Part shown: positions 29,214-42,491 of the stretch, in pieces | Position numbering within the stretch: position 1 is the first letter of the stretch | Layout of the letters: each line of letters begins with the position of its first letter | Source: Pseudomonas poae | GTDB taxonomy: Bacteria; Pseudomonadota; Gammaproteobacteria; Pseudomonadales; Pseudomonadaceae | Reading direction: 5' to 3' | Assembly: GCA_004000515.1 (NCBI GenBank) | Contig: CP034537.1 | Coordinates: 5,532,001 to 5,596,000 of the forward strand | Length of the DNA stretch: 64,000 nucleotides | The notes under the pieces: model-generated | Databases searched by the model: none | What the model was told of the DNA's origin: nothing | What the model saw: only the letters and a program-made list of their open reading frames with translations | Made by a program: the position numbers and the translations under genes

Positions 29214-29335
29214 AGTGCACAGCTGAGGATATTTCCTAGTTGGGAAAGTAGGTTCGGTCTGATTTTCGGGGCCAGTATTCCATGCCAGATCTGGCTACCC
29301 GCAAACTTCAGCGAATTGCGCTAGGAAGATACGTC

Positions 29336-29584
29336 ATGAATGCGACACCTGCAGCCATTAAAGTCACCATAAGCCAAGCGAGAGCTAGGTTTTCAAAATG
29401 GGTCAATCAAGCCAGTGAAGGGAAAGTCATCACTATCACGCGGCATGGGCAAGCAGTTGCCCTTCTCGTTGCTGCGGAAAAAAATAGTAAGAGCCGGATT
29501 GGCACAATGAAAGGGAATATCGCGGTACCAGATGATTTTGATGCCTCACTCCCTGACGACCTGTTGAATGCGTTCGAAGCTTGA
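29336..29584 (+). CDS. Orphan Phd/YefM-family antitoxin
   Basis: An 82-residue protein whose N-terminal part ISQARARFSKWVNQASEGK and TITRHGQAVALLVA match the Phd/YefM DNA-binding fold; the tail NIAVPDDFDASLPDDLLNAF resembles the toxin-neutralising end of antitoxins paired with PIN-domain VapC toxins. No toxin gene follows: mntH converges from the other strand only 13 bp away. The stretch is clearly richer in A+T than its neighbours, which suggests acquisition or a remnant of a lost pair. Confidence 0.82.
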   Translation: MNATPAAIKVTISQARARFSKWVNQASEGKVITITRHGQAVALLVAAEKNSKSRIGTMKGNIAVPDDFDASLPDDLLNAFEA

Positions 29585-32648: not shown

Positions 32649-33427
32649 TCAGAACATCGAGGCCGCCTTGGACTTGGCCAGGTAGCGCGCCGGGGAATCT
32701 CCCAGGTTGCGGCGAAACACCGAGGTGAACGCGCTTGAGCTGCTAAAACCCAGTTCGAACGCCACGTCGGTAATGGACGAACCATGACTGAGCCGCGCGG
32801 TGGCCTCTAGCAGGCACACCTGCTGGCGCCACGACACAAAGGTCATGCCGGTGCACTCGCGAAAGTTACGCGTAAAGCTGCGCCGGCTCATGCTCGACCA
32901 ATCGGCCATCTCGCCAATCGAGATCTTCTGCGTGGGCGCGTCGAGAAAGCGTTGACAGGACCGGGCCAAGCGGGATTCCGAGGGCAACGGTGCGCTGAGG
33001 GGCAGTTCGGGCATTGCGCCAATCTCATCAATCAACAGGGTTAGCACGCAGCGGTCGCGCATGCTGGGTGAAACGGGCGGAATCGCCAGCGCGGCCTCCA
33101 AGAGATGGCGCAACAGCGGCGAAACACCAAAGACCTGGCAATGGTCCTGCAAACCCGCACGCCGGGCCGCGTCGTCATCCAGGTACGTATTCCGCGCATG
33201 TGCATCTCATGCGACACACCACCTGGCACCCAGATCGCCCGTTGCGGCGGCACCACCCAGTTACCCAGGTCGGTAAACATCTTCAGCGCACCGGTGGAGG
33301 CATAGGCGAACTGCCCACGTCGATGGGTATGCCGTGGAAACACCGTGCCGGACGGGTACTCGCGCAGCGTCACCACCGCTTCGGGGCTGTCGGGTTCATA
33401 AGGCGAAAAAGTGAAGGTCGGCGGCAT
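32649..33427 (-). CDS. AraC-family regulator with cupin domain, divergent from the N-oxygenase operon; one frame break
   Basis: Regulator starting MPPTFTFSPYEPDSPEAVVT at 33427. The cupin part contains FPRHTHRRGQFAYASTGAL and VVPPQRAIWVPGGVSHEMHM; the C-terminal HTH pair is ISIGEMADWSSMSRRSFTRN and SITDVAFELGFSSSSAFTS. The frame breaks near 33178 between MRGIRT and LDDDAARRAGLQ. Corrected length is about 259 residues. It is separated by only 106 bp from the crotonase gene that opens the divergent operon, so it is the obvious candidate regulator of 33534-38261. Confidence 0.86.
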
Positions 33428-33533
33428 GGCCCGATTTTGTCAAAGTATGACCTGACATAGCAAGCGGGCCACCAAGCCCCACCTATCATCGTTGCTCCCC
33501 AAGCTGGGTTCATCTCGAAGGGATATTCGGAAA

Positions 33534-34319
33534 ATGAGTGTCAAAAACTACTTGGATGTACGAGTAGACGGCGCCGTTCTGATGGTGGGACTCAACCGCC
33601 CGCAGAAGCGAAACGCCATGTCTCTCGAAGTCATGCACGAACTGCACGACACCTTCACCAACATTCCCGAAGGCGTTGGTGCAGCAGTGCTATACAGCAC
33701 CAGCCAGCATTTCTGTACGGGGCTGGACCTTTCGGAAATTCGCGACCAATCGGTCATCGATAACGTCCAGGCTTTCCGCGAATGGCACAAGACGTTCGAA
33801 CTGATCCAGTTCGGCAAAGTCCCCGTGGTGGCCGCAATCACCGGCGCGGCCATCGGTGGCGGCCTGGAAATCGCCACCGCCTGCAGCCTGCGTGTGGTCG
33901 ATGACAGCGCCTTCTTCTCGCTGCCCGAAGCCATGCGCGGTCTGTACGTAGGCGTTGGCGCTTCAGTGCGCTTCCCGCGTATCGCCGGCATCGCGCTGAT
34001 GACCGACATGATGCTCACCGGCCGCACGCTCTACGCCAAGGAAAGCTACGAGCGCGGTGTTGCCCAGTATTTGGTGCCGGTAGGCCAGGCAGTGCTCAAG
34101 GCCACCGAATTGGCCCACAAGATCGCGGGCAACCTGCCCATGACCAATTACGCGGTAACCCACGTACTGCCACGCATTGTCGACCAGAGCCAGCAGGATG
34201 GCCTGATGACGGAGGCGTTGATTGCCGCAGTGGTGTCTTCCGACACCCGCACACAGGATCGCCTGGCGGACTTCCTGGATCGCAAGAAGGACAAGATCCA
34301 GACCGCGCCAGCGGTGTAA
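33534..34319 (+). CDS. Enoyl-CoA hydratase/isomerase (crotonase) family protein
   Basis: First gene of the putative biosynthetic operon; intact at 261 residues. Crotonase fold features are NRPQKRNAMSLEVM, the oxyanion-hole segment around STSQHFCTGLDLSE, and both catalytic-type glutamates, in AAIGGGLEIATACSL and in FFSLPEAMRGL. A CoA-bound acyl substrate and a hydration, isomerisation or hydrolysis reaction are therefore likely. It starts at ATG 33534. Because it is grouped with an N-oxygenase and an amidotransferase, a role in specialised metabolism is more likely than one in fatty acid degradation; this is inference. Confidence 0.88.
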   Translation: MSVKNYLDVRVDGAVLMVGLNRPQKRNAMSLEVMHELHDTFTNIPEGVGAAVLYSTSQHFCTGLDLSEIRDQSVIDNVQAFREWHKTFELIQFGKVPVVAAITGAAIGGGLEIATACSLRVVDDSAFFSLPEAMRGLYVGVGASVRFPRIAGIALMTDMMLTGRTLYAKESYERGVAQYLVPVGQAVLKATELAHKIAGNLPMTNYAVTHVLPRIVDQSQQDGLMTEALIAAVVSSDTRTQDRLADFLDRKKDKIQTAPAV

Positions 34320-34399
34320 CTCCCGGTCGTGAAAGTTGCCGGGCGCGCCTCGGCAAACCATGGATGGCCTTCACAGCACATTATCAATCCGGTGAAACC

Positions 34400-35359
34400 A
34401 TGTTTCAGCACAGCACTCAAGACGATCTTTATCGCAGCAATGACGCAGCCGATGAACGATTGATCAAAATCGAACGCAGCTGGCACAAACGCGCACAGAT
34501 CAAGCTGGACTCCCAACGTCCGGATATCCAGCTCGACCTGCAAGCGCCGGACTTTCTCGAGGCACTGCTACCCTTCGCACATGATCCGCAGTACCAGAAC
34601 TATCCGCACGCCCTGAAACTGCTGATCCTCTCGGCCGGCTGGGTCATCTACAACCAGAAAACCATCGCCATCGAAACCGAGATCATCTGCCCGTCGTGCA
34701 TCGACCTGCTGCAGCTGGGCTCACGCCTGAGCTCCGCCAGCGCCGCGACGATTTCCGAAACCCTGGCAGATGAGGCCTACCACACGTTGTTCTCGATCAA
34801 CATGTGTGAACTGGCGATTACCCAGCGCGGCATGCGCATCAAATGGCCAGAACTGGAGCTGACCCGGCACTTGAGCCAAGCCCAGGCAACGATGTCCGAG
34901 GCGGACTTCAAGATCTACCGCCTGGCCTTCTCGCTGGTTTCGGAGACGTTTATCAGCGACTACCTGGCCGACCTCAGTGACGCGCCCGACATCCAGCCGG
35001 TGTTTCGTCACGTGGTGGCCCTGCACAAAAAAGACGAGCTGGTGCACAAGCACATCTTCCCGCTGTTCGTGCAGCAGGTGGTCGGTGACTTCACGGCGCA
35101 GCAAACCACCTTGTTTACCCGGGGCATCGCCAACTCCATCCGGATCTTCCCGATGCGCGAGATTTCTGCGTGGCGAATCATCCTGCCCCAACTGCTCGAA
35201 GTGTTCGGCGATCGCTCGCTGCTGCTACCGACTCAATTTATCGAGACCGGCGAAGCGGACTACTCGGCGATGCCCGACATCCTCAGTTCCATTGGCATAC
35301 ATCCCGCAGCCGTACTGCCAGAACTACAAGTGATGACAGAGCCGGTCATCACCGTTTGA
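34400..35359 (+). CDS. AurF/CmlI-like diiron N-oxygenase
   Basis: Ferritin-like diiron oxygenase of the p-aminobenzoate N-oxygenase family, which oxidises an amine to a hydroxylamine, nitroso or nitro group. With the start at 34400 (MFQHSTQDDLYRSND) the protein has 319 residues. All ligand positions expected from AurF are present with matching spacing: E92 or E94 in IAIETEII, E125 and H128 in DEAYH, E182 in SETF, then H209, E213 and H216 in LHKKDELVH. The family is typical of natural-product clusters. The substrate is unknown. It lies 80 bp after the crotonase and 45 bp before asnB. Confidence 0.87.
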   Translation: MFQHSTQDDLYRSNDAADERLIKIERSWHKRAQIKLDSQRPDIQLDLQAPDFLEALLPFAHDPQYQNYPHALKLLILSAGWVIYNQKTIAIETEIICPSCIDLLQLGSRLSSASAATISETLADEAYHTLFSINMCELAITQRGMRIKWPELELTRHLSQAQATMSEADFKIYRLAFSLVSETFISDYLADLSDAPDIQPVFRHVVALHKKDELVHKHIFPLFVQQVVGDFTAQQTTLFTRGIANSIRIFPMREISAWRIILPQLLEVFGDRSLLLPTQFIETGEADYSAMPDILSSIGIHPAAVLPELQVMTEPVITV

Positions 35360-35404
35360 ACCCAGCGTGCCGCTGATCACTACAAATTCAATCGAGAACT
35401 TTTT

Positions 35405-37307
35405 ATGTGTGGATACATTGGCGTCTTCGCCAAACAACCTCGTGCGTTCGACCCGAACATGTTCGATGCCGCCCTGCGCGCCATCCATCACCGCGGCCCG
35501 GACAGCTCCAGCCAGTGGTTCGACCCCAAGGGCCAGGCCGCTTTCGGCTATGTACGCCTGGGTCTGGTCGGGCTGGGCAACGGCACCCAGCCTATCGTGG
35601 CCGATGAAGGCGACCTGGTGATGATGGTCAACGGCGAGTTCTACGACTACCAACGCATTCGCGCGGAGCTGGAAGGCCACGGCTGCCGGTTCAAGACTTC
35701 CTCGGACAGTGAAATCGCCATGCACCTGTACCGCCGCCATGGCGTACGCGGCCTGAAGCAACTGCGTGGCGAGTTCACCATCCTGATTTACGACCGCCTG
35801 CACAAAAGCTGTTTGCGGTGCGTGACCGAGTGGGCGTCAAGCCGCTGTACTACACCGAACATGAAGGCGCCTGGTACTTCGCTTCCGAGATCAAAGCCTT
35901 GCTCGCAGCGGGCGTTCCGGCGCAGTGGGACCACGAGTCCTACGCTAACCGGGGCTTTATCCTGCGTGACCGTACCGTGTTCAACAACATCCGCAGCGTA
36001 AAGCCGGGGTGCTGGATCATCGCCGACGAAAGCGGCCTGCAAACCGAGCAATACTGGGACTGGGACTTCCCCGACGCCCAGGCCACCGAGCAACGCAGTG
36101 AAGCCGAGATGATCGACTCGCTGCGCCACACCATCGAAGAGTCCGTGCGCCTGCGCCTGCATGCCGATGTGCCGGTGGGCGTCTGCCTCAGCGGCGGCCT
36201 GGATTCCTCGGCCATGCTGGGGATTGCCACCGAGCTGACCGGCCAACCGTTGCAGGCGTTCCACTTGTCCTTCGAAGGCGAGCAGGCCTACGACGAACGC
36301 CAGTACGCCGAAGTTGCCGCGCGGCATAACCGTGCGCACCTCAACGTGTTGTCGGTGAACTCCACTGACATGGCGGACAACTTCGAAAATGCCCTGTGGC
36401 ACGCCGAAATGCCCTTCGCCAATGCCCATAGCGTGGCCAAGTACCTGCTGTGCAAATACGTGCAAAGCCAGGGCATGCGTGCGGTGTTGACCGGTGAAGG
36501 CGCCGATGAGGTCTTCGGCGGCTACCCGCACTATCGCCGCGACATGGTGCTGTACAACCACGAACACCAGGACCCAACGGTGATCGCCGAACTCACCCGC
36601 CGTCTGCACGCCAGTGAAGACCGCTACCTGCCCGGCGGCAAAATGACGTGAAGTGGGTCCAGGACGAACTTGGCCATGGAGTGTCCTGGCTGCAAACCCA
36701 ATCGGCGCTGTTCGGCCCGTTGGCGCAGTTGTACAGCGATGACTTCCGTGAGCGCTTCTGCAATGTCGATGCCTATCGCCAGTTCTACGACCGGTTGAGC
36801 CCACGGGCGCTCGACGGTTGGGAGCCGGTCAACCGTTCGCTGTACATGGTTGCCAAGTCCAGCCTGCCCAACGTGGTACTGACCGCCTTGGGTGATCGCA
36901 TGGAAATGGCCGGCAGCCTGGAAGGCCGCCCGCCGCTGCTGGACCATCAAGTGATCGAAGCCGCCTGCCGCCTGCCGGTCAACATGAAAGTGCGCGGCGC
37001 CACCGAGAAGTACGCCCTGCGCGAAGCCATGCGCCCTTACGTGCCGCAGGCAGTGCTGGATCGCAAGAAGCAATACTTCCGCGCACCACCGGCGTCGGAA
37101 AGCCCGCAATCGAAGCTGTTCGAGATGATCAACGACGTGTTGAGCGGACCGGCGTTGAGCAACGTGCCGTTCTTCGACCCACGTAAAGTACGCGCCCTGC
37201 TGGCAACCTTGCCAAGCTTGTCCCCCGCGCAACGCGCATCGGCAGACAACCTGCTGATGGAAATTGCCGGGCTGTGCCTGATGCAACAACGGTTCGCTGT
37301 GAACTGA
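35405..37307 (+). CDS. Asparagine synthetase B-type glutamine amidotransferase, two frame breaks
   Basis: Class II glutamine amidotransferase joined to an ATP-dependent amide synthetase. C2 of MCGYIGVF is the glutaminase nucleophile; HHRGPDSS and MVNGEFYDYQ complete that domain. The synthetase PP-loop is VCLSGGLDSSAML, followed by TGEGADEVFGGYPHYRR. The frame breaks near 35810 (AAAAA read as AAAA) and near 36648 (GG read as G in AAAATGACG). Corrected length is about 635 residues. Within this operon it may amidate a pathway intermediate rather than make asparagine, as several AsnB homologues in biosynthetic clusters do. Confidence 0.88.
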
Positions 37308-37360
37308 CCTGTAGGCGGCGCGCTGCGGATGCGGTGCGTCGCCTGACCCAAGGAGGCTCC

Positions 37361-38261
37361 ATGCTGAAAAACACTTATCACTCGCCGTGCTCGTGACACT
37401 GGTCTGGGGCGTCAACTTCCCCATCACCAAGTTGGGCCTGCGCGCGATCGACCCCTTTGTACTCACGGGCATCCGCTTTGCCCTCGCCGCCCTGCCGCTG
37501 GTGTTCTTTATCAAGCGCCCAGCCGTCAAGTTCAGTTACGTGGTGGCCTACGGGATCATCTTCGGGCTGGGCATGTGGGGCGTGATCAACTACGGCATCC
37601 AGGTGGGCGTGAGTCCAGGCATTGCCTCGTTGATCATTCAACTCAGCGTGTTCTTCACCATGGGCTGGGGCTTTTGCTGTTCAAGGAAAAGATCCGTGGT
37701 GCGCAGATGATCGGCGCGGTGTTGGCACTGATTGGCCTGGCGGGGATCATTTCGACCCAGGAAGGCAACCATGCGGTGCTGGGCGTCATGCTGATCGTGC
37801 TGAGCGCGGTGGCCTGGAGCATCGGCAACGTCATCATCAAGAAGTCCGGGGTCAAGGAGATCTTCTCGTTCATGGTGTGGGCCAGCCTGATCCCGCCAAT
37901 TCCGCTGTTCCTTACGGCCTGGCTGATGCATGGCAGTGCTGCGTTTGAAGGCTTGCAAGCCAGCCTCGACCTGACGGCAGTCCTGTCGATCCTGTTTCAG
38001 GTGTACTTGGCCACGCACTTTGCCTACTGGGGCTGGAACTCGTTGCTCAAGCTGTACCCGGTGTCGACCGTGGCGCCATTGTCGTTGCTGATTCCCGTGT
38101 TTGGCATTGCCAGTTCGATGCTCATACTCGACGAGCGTATTTCTACGCCGAACCTGATCTCCATCGGGATCATCATCGCTGGGCTGGCGGTGGGCTTGTA
38201 TCGCAGGCCGGTGAACGTGGTTACCACCGGACAGGACGTCGGCATGCAGCCCAGCAAATAG
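37361..38261 (+). CDS. EamA/DMT-family transporter, two frame breaks
   Basis: Inner-membrane ten-helix transporter of the RhaT/EamA type, probably exporting the product of the operon. The ATG at 37361 has an ideal AGGAGG upstream. The frame is lost near 37377 (TTT read as TT) and near 37677 (GGGGG read as GGGG); corrected reading gives MLKNT-LSLAVLVTLVWGVN, the usual DMT opening, and LLLFKEKIRGAQMIGAVLAL after the second site. The two EamA repeats are visible. Corrected length is about 300 residues. It ends the four-gene operon. Confidence 0.87.
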
Positions 38262-38285: not shown

Positions 38286-38590
38286 TCAACACGCGAAGTT
38301 GTCGATTTTCACCTGACCATCGGGAAACGTCGCAATAATTTCCAGCTCACCGCCCATTGCACGAATGTAGTCACGCAACGTGCTGATATACATATCGGTG
38401 CGCCGCTCCATCTTGGAAACAGCCGCCTGGTTGATATTCAATGCCTTGGCCAGGCTTTGCTGGCTCAATCGCTGAGCCTTGCGCAGCTCATGCAGGGCAT
38501 TTCCTGCAGATGTTGCTGGAACAGCAGCTTGGCTTCCGCACGGGATTGCGGCGTCATGCGCGCTTGAAGTTCAGCGAATTTCTTAGCCAT
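38286..38590 (-). CDS. XRE-type HTH antitoxin of a HigBA-like module, one frame break
   Basis: DNA-binding antitoxin starting MAKKFAELQARMTPQSRAEA at 38590. The HTH is LSQQSLAKALNINQAAVSKM, followed by ERRTDMYISTLRDYIRAMGG. The frame breaks near 38505, between LLFQQHLQEMP and RLSQQSLAK. Corrected length is about 101 residues. Its start overlaps the toxin end by 8 bp; the toxin-first order is usual for HigBA. The antitoxin is expected to repress the promoter upstream of the toxin. Confidence 0.85.
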
Positions 38591-38960
38591 GGTTACGGCC
38601 CTCTTTACGCATTGTTTCCAGATGTATGTCATACAGCTTTTCTGCCACGGGAACATGCTCCTCATACCATCGGCGTTGTCCGGTCTTGTCACCACCGACC
38701 AGCAACAATGCGCATCGGCGTGGATCAAAGGCGTACAACACCCGAGAAGGTCTCCCTGCGTGCTGCACGCGCAGTTCCCGCAGGTTGCCATGCCGGGAGC
38801 CCTTGATATCGCTACTGTGGGGAAAGCCCAAACCCGGCCCGAAAAGCCCCAGCAGATCAACGCTGGCAGAGACCGAAATCTGCTCCTTTACCCCCAGGCC
38901 ATCCCACCAGCCTCCGAACTCATCCGTGTATTCAATTTCACAGCCCATGAAATATGCCAT
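38583..38960 (-). CDS. RelE/HigB-like toxin (phage Gp49-like family)
   Basis: Predicted mRNA interferase, intact at 125 residues. Family segments are YTDEFGGWWDGLGVKEQISV, HSSDIKGSRHGNLRELRVQ and RVLYAFDPRRCALLLVGGDK, then RRWYEEHVPVAEKLYDIHL. Toxicity would be held in check by the overlapping HTH antitoxin. I kept the start MAYFMGCEIEYTDEF at 38960; an internal ATG (MGCEIEY) four codons later is possible. The upstream region to 39192 is AT-rich and has no gene I can support. Confidence 0.88.
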   Translation of the reverse strand: MAYFMGCEIEYTDEFGGWWDGLGVKEQISVSASVDLLGLFGPGLGFPHSSDIKGSRHGNLRELRVQHAGRPSRVLYAFDPRRCALLLVGGDKTGQRRWYEEHVPVAEKLYDIHLETMRKEGRNHG

Positions 38961-39192
38961 CCAAGGAATATAATCTCAAGAACTTAAAGCTAGGAGATGA
39001 AGTGGCCCACCTTCCACCCGTGCCCCCTGGAAAATTGTTTGTACATCCTTCCGATTCGACGGCTAACCGCCCGCCCACCAACAAAAAAAGACGCGATATC
39101 CGCCTCACTCGCAGCAAAAACACAATTTTCAAAATGTAAAAAGCGCTCTAATACGCTCCTGTTGATTGGTTTTGAAGATCCTGGAGTTCCCC

Positions 39193-40999
39193 ATGCCCCA
39201 TGAAGGCAACCTGTTACAAGCAGCCGTGGTGTTCCTGCTCGCCGCCGTGCTTACCGTCCCCCTGGCAAAACGCCTGCAACTGGGCGCGGTGCTGGGCTAC
39301 CTGTTCGCTGGCGTGATCATCGGCCCATCGGTACTGGGCCTGGTGGGTAACCCGCAGAGCGTGGCGCAGTTCTCTGAATTGGGGGTGGTGTTGCTGCTGT
39401 TCATCATCGGCCTGGAGCTGTCGCCCAAACGGTTGTGGGTGATGCGCAAAGCGGTGTTTGGTGTGGGCCTGGCCCAGGTGTTGCTCACCGGGTTGGTGAT
39501 GGGCGTCGTGGCGCTATGGGTATTTGGCCAGTCTTGGAACAGCGCCATCGTGCTGGGCCTGGGCCTGGCGTTGTCCTCCACTGCCTTTGGCCTGCAAAGC
39601 CTGGCCGAGCGTAAAGAGCTGAACCAGCCCCACGGGCGCCTGGCATTTGCCATCCTGCTGTTCCAGGACATCGCCGCCATCCCGCTGATCGCGATGGTGC
39701 CGCTGCTGGCGGGCAGTGACCACCGACCACCGAAGCCCAGGGCCTGCAGCACGTGTTGCAAATCCTCGGCAGCATCGCCGTGGTAATCATCGGTGGGCGC
39801 TACCTGTTGCGACCCGTGTTTCGCATCGTCGCCAAGACCGGGCTGCGGGAAGTGTCCACCGCCACCGCTTTGCTGGTGGTGATCGGTACGGCCTGGCTGA
39901 TGGAACTGGTAGGCGTTTCCATGGCCCTCGGCGCCTTCCTCGCCGGCTTGCTGCTGGCGGATTCGGAATACCGCCATGAACTCGAATCCCAGATCGAACC
40001 ATTCAAAGGCCTGCTGCTGGGCCTGTTCTTTATCAGCGTGGGCATGGGCGCCAACCTCAGCCTGCTGCTCAGCTCGCCGTTGGTGGTGATCGGCCTGACG
40101 CTGCTGTTGATCGGCTTGAAGTTGCCGCTGTTGTACGCCGTCGGCCGCGTGGTGGGCGACCTCAATCGCGAAAGCGCCCTGCGCCTGGGCGTGGTGTTGG
40201 TGGCGGGGGTGAATTTGCCTTCGTGGTGTTCAAGATCGGTCGCGACCAGGGCCTGTTCGAACCGCATCTCTACGATGTGCTGGTACTCACCATCACCCTC
40301 TCCATGGCCGTGACCCCGCTACTGCTGTTGGTATGCCCGAAGCTGTTCAAGCCCAAGGCCAAGCCAGTGGAGGTGCCAGAGGAATACCGCACCATCGAAA
40401 GCGACGCGCCGCGCGTGGTGATCGCCGGCATGGGGCGGATGGGCCAGATCGTCGCGCGGATTCTGCGGGCGCAGAACATCTCGTTTATCGCCCTCGACAC
40501 GTCGGTGGAAACCATCGAACTGACCCGCAGTTTCGGCGGCATGCCGGTGTTCTATGGCGACCCGCAACGTCCCGAGATCCTGCACGCCGCCAAAGTCGAC
40601 CAAGCGGAGTTCTTTGTGATCGCCATGGACGACCCGGAGATCAACATCAAGACCGCCGAACTGGTGCGCAACCTCTACCCGCACATGAAGATCATCGCCC
40701 GTGCGCGTAACCGCCAGCACGTGCACCGCTTGGTAGACCTCGATGCTTCACCGGTGCGCGAGACCTTCTACTCCAGCCTGGAAATGAGCCGCCGCACCCT
40801 GGTCGGCCTCGGTTTGACCCAGGCCCAGGCCGACGCACGCATCACCCGCTTCAAGAACCACGACCTGCAACTGCTGGCCGCGCAACATGCGGTGTACGAC
40901 GACGCAGGCAAAGTGATGCAAACCGCCCAGGAAGCAAGGGCCGAATTGGCGCGGCTGTTTGAGATGGACCGACTAGAGGAAGAGTCCGACAAGGTGTGA
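39193..40999 (+). CDS. Kef-type monovalent cation:proton antiporter with TrkA-N domain, two frame breaks
   Basis: Inner-membrane potassium-efflux or proton-antiport protein of the CPA2 family. It starts MPHEGNLLQAAVVFLLAAVL and has about twelve helices, with LFQDIAAIPLIA and the GAFLAGLLLADSEYRHELES loop of KefB/KefC. The cytosolic RCK domain begins RVVIAGMGRMGQIVARIL (nucleotide-binding GxGxxG). The frame breaks near 39722 (CCC read as CC) and near 40213 (six G read as five, between VVLVAG and GEFAFVVF). Corrected length is about 602 residues. Regulation by glutathione adducts is known for KefB/KefC, but whether it applies here is open. Confidence 0.9.
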
Positions 41000-41772: not shown

Positions 41773-42491
41773 TTATCTCAAGCTTTTCTCAAACCAAGCC
41801 TTCAAGTCCTGAATCTCCGCCTCACTGATGGTATGCGGCATCCCCATATACCCATGAAACTGCGGCTTCAACCCCAGCCCCACCAACACCTCATTCGCCC
41901 GGGTCGCCGACGCATACGGCAGCGCCTGGTCCAGCGTGCCATGGCCGATAAAGATCGCCAGTTTGTCCAGTGATGCATCCGGCTTCAGCTCAGCTTTCAA
42001 CACTGGCAACACGCTGCCACTCAACGCCGCAATCCCACGAACCAGCGCAGGCTTACGCAAGCCCACCTCGTAGGACATGATCGCGCCTTGGCTGAAGCCT
42101 ACGAGGAACACCCGGTCAGGTTGGGTGTGGTACTTGGCGGTAGCCTGGGTCACGAAGTCTTCGATCAGCTTGGCGCTGCGTTGCAAATCTGCCGTCTCGC
42201 CGTCGTAATCACCGTCACCGGGCTTTTGGCAAACCAACGATAGCCACTCGGGTCCACCGGCATTGGCGCCCGCGCCGACAGATAAGTCCAAGTGGACGGC
42301 AACGCGTCCTTGATGCCAAACAGGTCTTCTTCGTTGCTGCCGAACCCATGCAGGAAAATCACCAAAGGTTCATTGCGCGCATCACCCTGGGTCTGTTCCA
42401 GGTACGACAGGGGCAAATCGGTGTGCAGCGTGTCGTCAGCGTGAACGACGCCAGCCACCAGGGTCAGCGCCAGGGCAAGCAGTTTGAGCAT
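41773..42491 (-). CDS. Secreted phospholipase/carboxylesterase-type hydrolase, one frame break
   Basis: Alpha/beta hydrolase of the carboxylesterase/thioesterase (PF02230-like) group, starting MLKLLALALTLVAGVVHADD with a cleavable signal, so periplasmic. The oxyanion segment is FLHGFGSNEEDLF, the nucleophile is in VFLVGFSQGAIMS, the acid is in IGHGTLDQALP and the histidine is in GYMGMPHTISEAE. The frame breaks near 42222, where GGG is read as GG between FAKSP and GDGDYDGE. Corrected length is about 239 residues. Its substrate is unknown. Confidence 0.85.

Follow-up and report, generated by a model that had tools for sequence, protein, structure and literature searches.

A 64,000-nucleotide stretch of a 7.52-Mb Pseudomonas genome (G000:C1:5532001-5596000, hereafter the window) carries four co-oriented genes, encoding a crotonase, an AurF-like diiron N-oxygenase, an AsnB-type enzyme and an EamA-type transporter, next to a divergent gene for an AraC-type regulator. 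By analogy with described AurF/AsnB pairs, we put at roughly one in two the probability that these genes form an AraC-controlled operon for an exported small hydroxamic acid (R-CO-NH-OH) built from a short acyl-coenzyme A (CoA). According to the model, the AurF-like enzyme would hydroxylate the nitrogen of an amide, glutamine being the likeliest, to give glutamyl gamma-hydroxamate. The glutaminase domain of the AsnB-type enzyme would then free hydroxylamine from this compound, and its synthetase domain would join the freed hydroxylamine to an ATP-activated carboxylic acid, thereby forming the hydroxamate. The short acid would be provided by the crotonase, from a CoA ester of primary metabolism (the block contains no CoA ligase), and the EamA protein would export the product. 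Hydroxylation could precede transfer or follow amidation, and either order would end in a hydroxamic acid. In its most complete form, a self-contained route with three enzymes and one exporter in which glutamine-borne hydroxylamine is passed to a crotonase-released short acid without a polyketide synthase (PKS) or nonribosomal peptide synthetase (NRPS), the proposal is more tentative and may well prove wrong. The new element is the AurF/AsnB pair in a compact PKS- and NRPS-free operon with a crotonase, the pair itself being already known; no published cluster with the same gene set was present among the literature matches listed, a coverage outside which subscription journals largely fall.

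An AurF homologue is paired with an AsnB homologue in several described systems. According to the available parts of the reports, TsnB6/7 turn glutamine into glutamyl hydroxamate by oxidation, after which TsnB9 hands the hydroxylamine to trichostatic acid (PMC13418202, PMC11160463), while SaAmOx-AS/SaAmOx/SaHAT expressed in Escherichia coli yield benzohydroxamic acid, the acceptor being benzoic acid and not benzoyl-CoA (PMC13418202). As far as these excerpts describe them, both systems hold the AurF and AsnB homologues in one cluster and their transferase takes a free acid; however, they are larger and include PKS genes and the accessory TsnB6, whereas the operon here is PKS-free, contains a crotonase and has NGE instead of SGE in its AsnB-type enzyme. 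The same hydroxamate pairing has been proposed for ActI/ActJ (actinonin) and MatA/MatC (matlystatin), whose clusters, in the portion of the source available, lack a TsnB6-like gene (PMC5719088). Compared by their description there, the act and mat systems share with the operon an AurF-like and an AsnB-like protein, the lack of TsnB6 and an acyl-CoA-derived acid, but they are large clusters with an ethylmalonyl-CoA-type acid supply where the operon has a single crotonase (PMC5719088). In the dnf genes of Alcaligenes, too, a diiron enzyme of the AurF family is accompanied by a glutamine amidotransferase (PMC9136411, PMC11440038, PMC11160463, each in part); in dnf, however, the amidotransferase is of class I and is accompanied by serine hydroxymethyltransferase (SHMT) and a 2Fe-2S protein, and the gene list as quoted has no AsnB, crotonase or EamA. 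Neither the domain scan nor the ten loci described below revealed a class-I amidotransferase, SHMT or 2Fe-2S protein in the operon block.

The block recurs as a unit. A contig search with the N-oxygenase returned 10 distinct named loci, in P. aylmerensis, P. nabeulensis, three records named P. viridiflava, P. simiae, P. canadensis, P. marginalis, P. lini and P. reactans, and the genus of the window follows from these relatives. All ten keep araC, crotonase, aurF, asnB and eamA in one order, with gaps of 76-83, 45-47 and 53-54 bp among the four co-oriented genes and 105-107 bp separating araC from the crotonase gene; the start extrapolated for the P. lini crotonase is an ACG codon, and an ATG lies a short way upstream of it. 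The preliminary description of this DNA had named synteny in Pseudomonas relatives as a check on its four-gene operon, and the synteny holds in every named locus. Its statement that the operon lacks NRPS and PKS genes also stands, none being conserved inside the block in the ten loci, and no sixth gene is conserved there. The P. lini block occupies a different neighbourhood, from which the flanking families common to the other loci are absent. The gene adjoining araC in P. lini is of the amidase family (L041, 6822-8228, reverse strand), which is not among the flanking families of the other loci. Comparison of P. canadensis with P. lini gave a ratio of nonsynonymous to synonymous substitution rates (dN/dS) of 0.045-0.059 for the four co-oriented genes, whose dS approached saturation; in araC dS had reached saturation and yielded no ratio. 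The five-gene order and spacing are thus more than chance and mark a conserved unit.

A genus census found an AurF match at E<=1e-10 in 66 of 398 genomes and one of at least 95% identity in 11, the window's own included. The other ten of these 11 have crotonase, AurF and AsnB adjacent and AsnB open (10/10), although the sets overlap, six of the ten appearing identical to named-locus genomes. Outside the genus, an AurF search with a threshold of E<=1e-30 hit one of 369 genomes of the class (G525, 39%) and none of 398 in the phylum sample besides the window's genome, and AsnB at E<=1e-170 likewise one of 369 and none of 398, the class and phylum samples partly overlapping.

The AurF-like gene is a single open reading frame (ORF) of 331 aa (34364..35359, forward strand), for which a start at 34400 is likelier than the ORF start. 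Its product matched PF11583 with 99.8 bits (cut-off 29.6). The seven diiron ligands reported earlier are present, at E104, E137, H140, E194, H221, E225 and H228 in the 331-aa numbering, which adds 12 to the earlier numbers, and these positions are invariant in a 15-row alignment and in the 59 displayed rows of a larger one. The first ligand had been given as E92/E94; E92 aligns with the AurF ligand and E94 does not. By sequence the only solved relatives found were CmlI and AurF, and a predicted model (pLDDT 80.2) gave nine Foldseek matches at E<=0.001, all of them CmlI or AurF, with TMq 0.64-0.67. The enzyme is assigned on these grounds to the AurF-family diiron N-oxygenases, with N-oxygenation as its predicted activity. 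The first assumption, that hydroxylamine, nitroso or nitro groups are what such enzymes produce, overlooks homologues for which action on the nitrogen of an amide is reported (TsnB7, and LitN as judged by gene deletion). The motif SE.F[IV]SDYL was found in 31 of the 32 rows that make up four groups (operon clade, amidotransferase-linked relatives, intermediates) and in none of 27 rows with AurF, CmlI and other Pseudomonas types among them, counts that are descriptive, the groups having been named after tree inspection.

AurF homologues also occur in the mgo-, ham- and pvf-type clusters of Pseudomonas and Burkholderia, where the partner is an NRPS. The operon differs from these in that no NRPS adjoins its AurF gene, either in the domain scan of the window or in the ten loci. 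A second AurF-family gene of the same genome (G000:C1:1322173-1322952, L052) does lie by a DUF3050 gene and an 1111-aa AMP-binding/carrier-protein (PCP)/reductase NRPS, a locus that presumably resembles the mgo and pvf clusters.

The AsnB-type gene (35405..37307, forward strand) encodes a class-II glutaminase and an ATP-dependent synthetase, matched as GATase_6, GATase_7 and Asn_synthase pieces. The glutaminase Cys2 and the synthetase loop SGGLDSS are kept, as had been noted. Among solved structures it scores highest with the hydroxyamidotransferase 7ylz (174 bits, where E. coli AsnB, 1ct9, reaches 144), a result in favour of the hydroxamate model. The enzyme has FANAHSVAKY at the place of TTIRAS, a stretch of E. 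coli AsnB that we take to bind aspartate. Because TTIRAS is absent, aspartate is probably not the acceptor, and on the same ground an operon for asparagine synthesis and export was set aside. The structure 7ylz is that of TsnB9, according to the part of the source available (PMC13284220). Relatives of the enzyme at ~67% identity occur in Burkholderia, Paraburkholderia and Chromobacterium among the best 120 of 2218 matches. Two further neighbourhoods were recorded: on a Methylobacterium nodulans plasmid (L049, 37-4665) asnB (52% to the operon's), an FAD monooxygenase, an acyl-CoA dehydrogenase and a PaaI thioesterase stand in a row, and on a plasmid of Streptomyces sp. NBC_00853 (L056, 4589-8909) asnB, an inositol-monophosphatase-type gene and a diiron oxygenase gene do so, possibly a further AurF/AsnB pair.

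The crotonase gene (33534..34319, forward strand) is a single open frame whose product matched Pfam ECH_1 with 139.6 bits and the PRK08150 subfamily with 325.8 bits (cut-off 232); the genome's next best crotonase shares only 33% identity with it. The nearest solved structures are 3hin and then 4izb/4izc, which are presumably DmdD. Both catalytic glutamates, described earlier as kept, are present and align with those of 3hin and 4izb. DmdD, the crotonase of dimethylsulfoniopropionate (DMSP) breakdown, hydrates and hydrolyses a CoA ester; as described in the accessible part of the source, it shares the two catalytic glutamates, and 3hin was its then-closest homologue in the PDB (PMC3660561). By this analogy, we infer that the operon crotonase acts as a DmdD-like hydratase/hydrolase on a CoA ester. 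The best model for the EamA-type transporter (37361..38261, forward strand) was the O-acetylserine/cysteine exporter PRK11453, at 187.3 bits and below the cut-off of 472, which is only a hint that its cargo may be small and polar.

The regulator gene (32649..33427, reverse strand; AraC_binding and HTH_18) is separated from the crotonase gene by a divergent intergenic region (33428..33533) of 106 bp, in which conservation across the window and ten relatives is strongest in the ~44 bp nearest araC, consistent with a regulatory role. Pfam domains and ORFs bear out the earlier account of four genes with a divergent AraC regulator, and its gaps of 80, 45 and 53 bp between the four genes were read correctly; position 32649, given for the regulator, falls in the C-terminal helix-turn-helix (HTH) piece only.

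That account had passed over frameshifts. In the window araC is broken once, into a cupin/AraC-binding half (33041-33427) and an HTH half (32649-33152), both on the reverse strand, where relatives have one 265-aa frame; asnB lies in three pieces (35405-36001, 35818-36651 and 36648-37307), where AsnB is one open frame of 634 aa in all ten relatives; and eamA has two breaks, while crotonase and aurF are intact. Comparison with P. reactans showed that a Na/H-exchanger-type gene (39166-40999) is split into three frames and a carboxylesterase-type gene (41773-42491) into two; Nramp and other flanking genes match in one frame. Since flanking genes are broken too and the relatives carry open copies, the breaks are very probably assembly indels.

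The two closest AurF relatives with readable neighbourhoods, at ~39%, lie in clusters that resemble a system of direct ammonia oxidation (dirammox). They are L050, from G525 (class Gammaproteobacteria as GTDB draws it), and L043, from Tistrella mobilis plasmid pTM3. Both clusters (L050, 6331-12265; L043, 10387-17542) place AurF alongside SHMT, a flavin reductase and a glutamine amidotransferase of the PRK07053 type, and this company, with the SE.F[IV]SDYL motif that they share with the operon clade, speaks for the hydroxamate model. Further genes are a rubredoxin and a class-III aminotransferase at L050 and, at L043, a GntR-aminotransferase regulator and a more distant EamA gene. They resemble the dnf gene list in the available part of PMC9136411, with a rubredoxin in L050 where dnf has the 2Fe-2S protein. 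Identification of their amidotransferases as PabA was rejected, the PRK07053 scores being 275.4 and 315.7 against a cut-off of 250 and those for TIGR00566 just 27-28 bits. The amidotransferase of L044, which is linked to p-aminobenzoate (PABA), is of a different type, with 220 bits to TIGR00566.

Several observations weigh against the hydroxamate model. The AsnB-type enzyme, scored on the intact P. canadensis copy, passes the cut-off as an asparagine synthase (TIGR01536, 422.8 bits against 267.1). Its glutaminase domain has NGE, found in 16 of 17 aligned rows, where TsnB9 has SGE, and because of this the enzyme may be an ordinary amide-former. No AurF was seen near five other members of the subfamily (L049, L051, L060-L062) in the surroundings inspected, so the subfamily as such is not tied to hydroxylamine. 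No TsnB6-like gene was noticed in the block, in which no TsnB6 sequence was used as a query. Direct oxidation of glutamine by DnfA is itself disputed in the accessible portion of PMC11440038. Finally, the AurF tree did not place the operon enzyme with the amidotransferase-linked ones. It held 57 rows, with 28 of the 148 returned AurF-family proteins and the loci, and omitted L037 (a 7-residue fragment); a second tree was also built without L056 (a very long branch) and L059. A single clade of operon rows and amidotransferase-linked rows was weakly rejected (p-AU 0.039), while a grouping of the operon rows with the AurF/CmlI side was not rejected (p-AU 0.36); the deep tree is not decisive.

The amide could also come first, with the AsnB-type enzyme amidating an acyl compound with glutamine-derived ammonia and the AurF-like enzyme then hydroxylating the amide nitrogen. 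This sub-case of the hydroxamate model is unlikely, though the canonical NGE fits it, as do amide N-hydroxylation by an AurF homologue, suggested by litN deletion, and the AsnB homologue SoaC, which turns free sorbic acid into sorbamide. It was also the initial model for actinonin and matlystatin in what is available of the source (PMC5719088). In contrast, the genes next to the L050 and L043 AurF genes encode glutamine amidotransferases, and the neighbours scanned there included no synthetase of the amide-forming kind.

The preliminary description had proposed an N-oxygenated, amidated acyl compound, made by an N-oxygenase converting a free amine to a hydroxylamine, nitroso or nitro group and an AsnB amidating a separate carboxyl. 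The genes, their order and their residues stand, but separate N-oxygenation and amidation are not the best-supported scheme because the AurF and AsnB pair has a described joint function in hydroxamate formation. We consider this scheme improbable to a similar degree: AurF and CmlI are the sole solved relatives found and a clade with them survives the tree test, but the conserved block contains no amine-supplying gene, the AE.xIN-type helix stretch seen in AurF and CmlI is missing from the operon clade, and it is the rows with pab genes nearby (L044, L058) that fall with the AurF/CmlI side.

The remaining explanations have little in their favour. Transfer of hydroxylamine or hydrazine by the AsnB-type enzyme to give a hydrazide, diazeniumdiolate or related compound has precedents in the AsnB homologue FzmA, which hydrolyses glutamylhydrazine, and in the AurF homologues of fragin biosynthesis, as partially available sources describe them; it is nevertheless very improbable, as none of the five conserved genes is one that would supply hydrazine or nitrous acid. 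Release of free hydroxylamine in a dirammox-like nitrogen route, with no dedicated metabolite, would suit the dnf-like clusters of the AurF relatives, but the block has no class-I amidotransferase, SHMT or electron carrier and a mere hydrolase would have no use for the complete-looking SGGLDSS loop, so that we give it scant credence. Genuine decay of the operon, leaving the pathway dead in this strain, would account for frameshifts in three of five genes and is the least credible of all, as ordinary flanking genes are also broken and crotonase and aurF are open.

Some neighbouring features of the window belong to other subjects. Just past eamA lies a Gp49-like (PF05973) gene (38583-38957, reverse strand), of a family that includes HigB-type toxins, overlapped by a small frame without Pfam match (38465-38857); a Phd/YefM-type antitoxin gene (PF02604) is located at 29282-29581 on the forward strand.

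If the hydroxamate model is correct, these Pseudomonas would secrete an undescribed small hydroxamic acid, a metal chelator or metalloenzyme inhibitor, from a cluster with no PKS or NRPS signature by which to find it. AurF/AsnB hydroxamate pairs would then extend beyond large actinomycete clusters to a compact Pseudomonas operon, including that of P. simiae, P. canadensis and P. marginalis. The operon would also offer a minimal system for the action of the AurF family on amide nitrogen, a question that divides the dnf papers, as the available part of one of them indicates (PMC11440038). Within the family, the dnf-like loci of Tistrella and G525 connect natural-product N-oxygenases with nitrogen-cycle enzymes.

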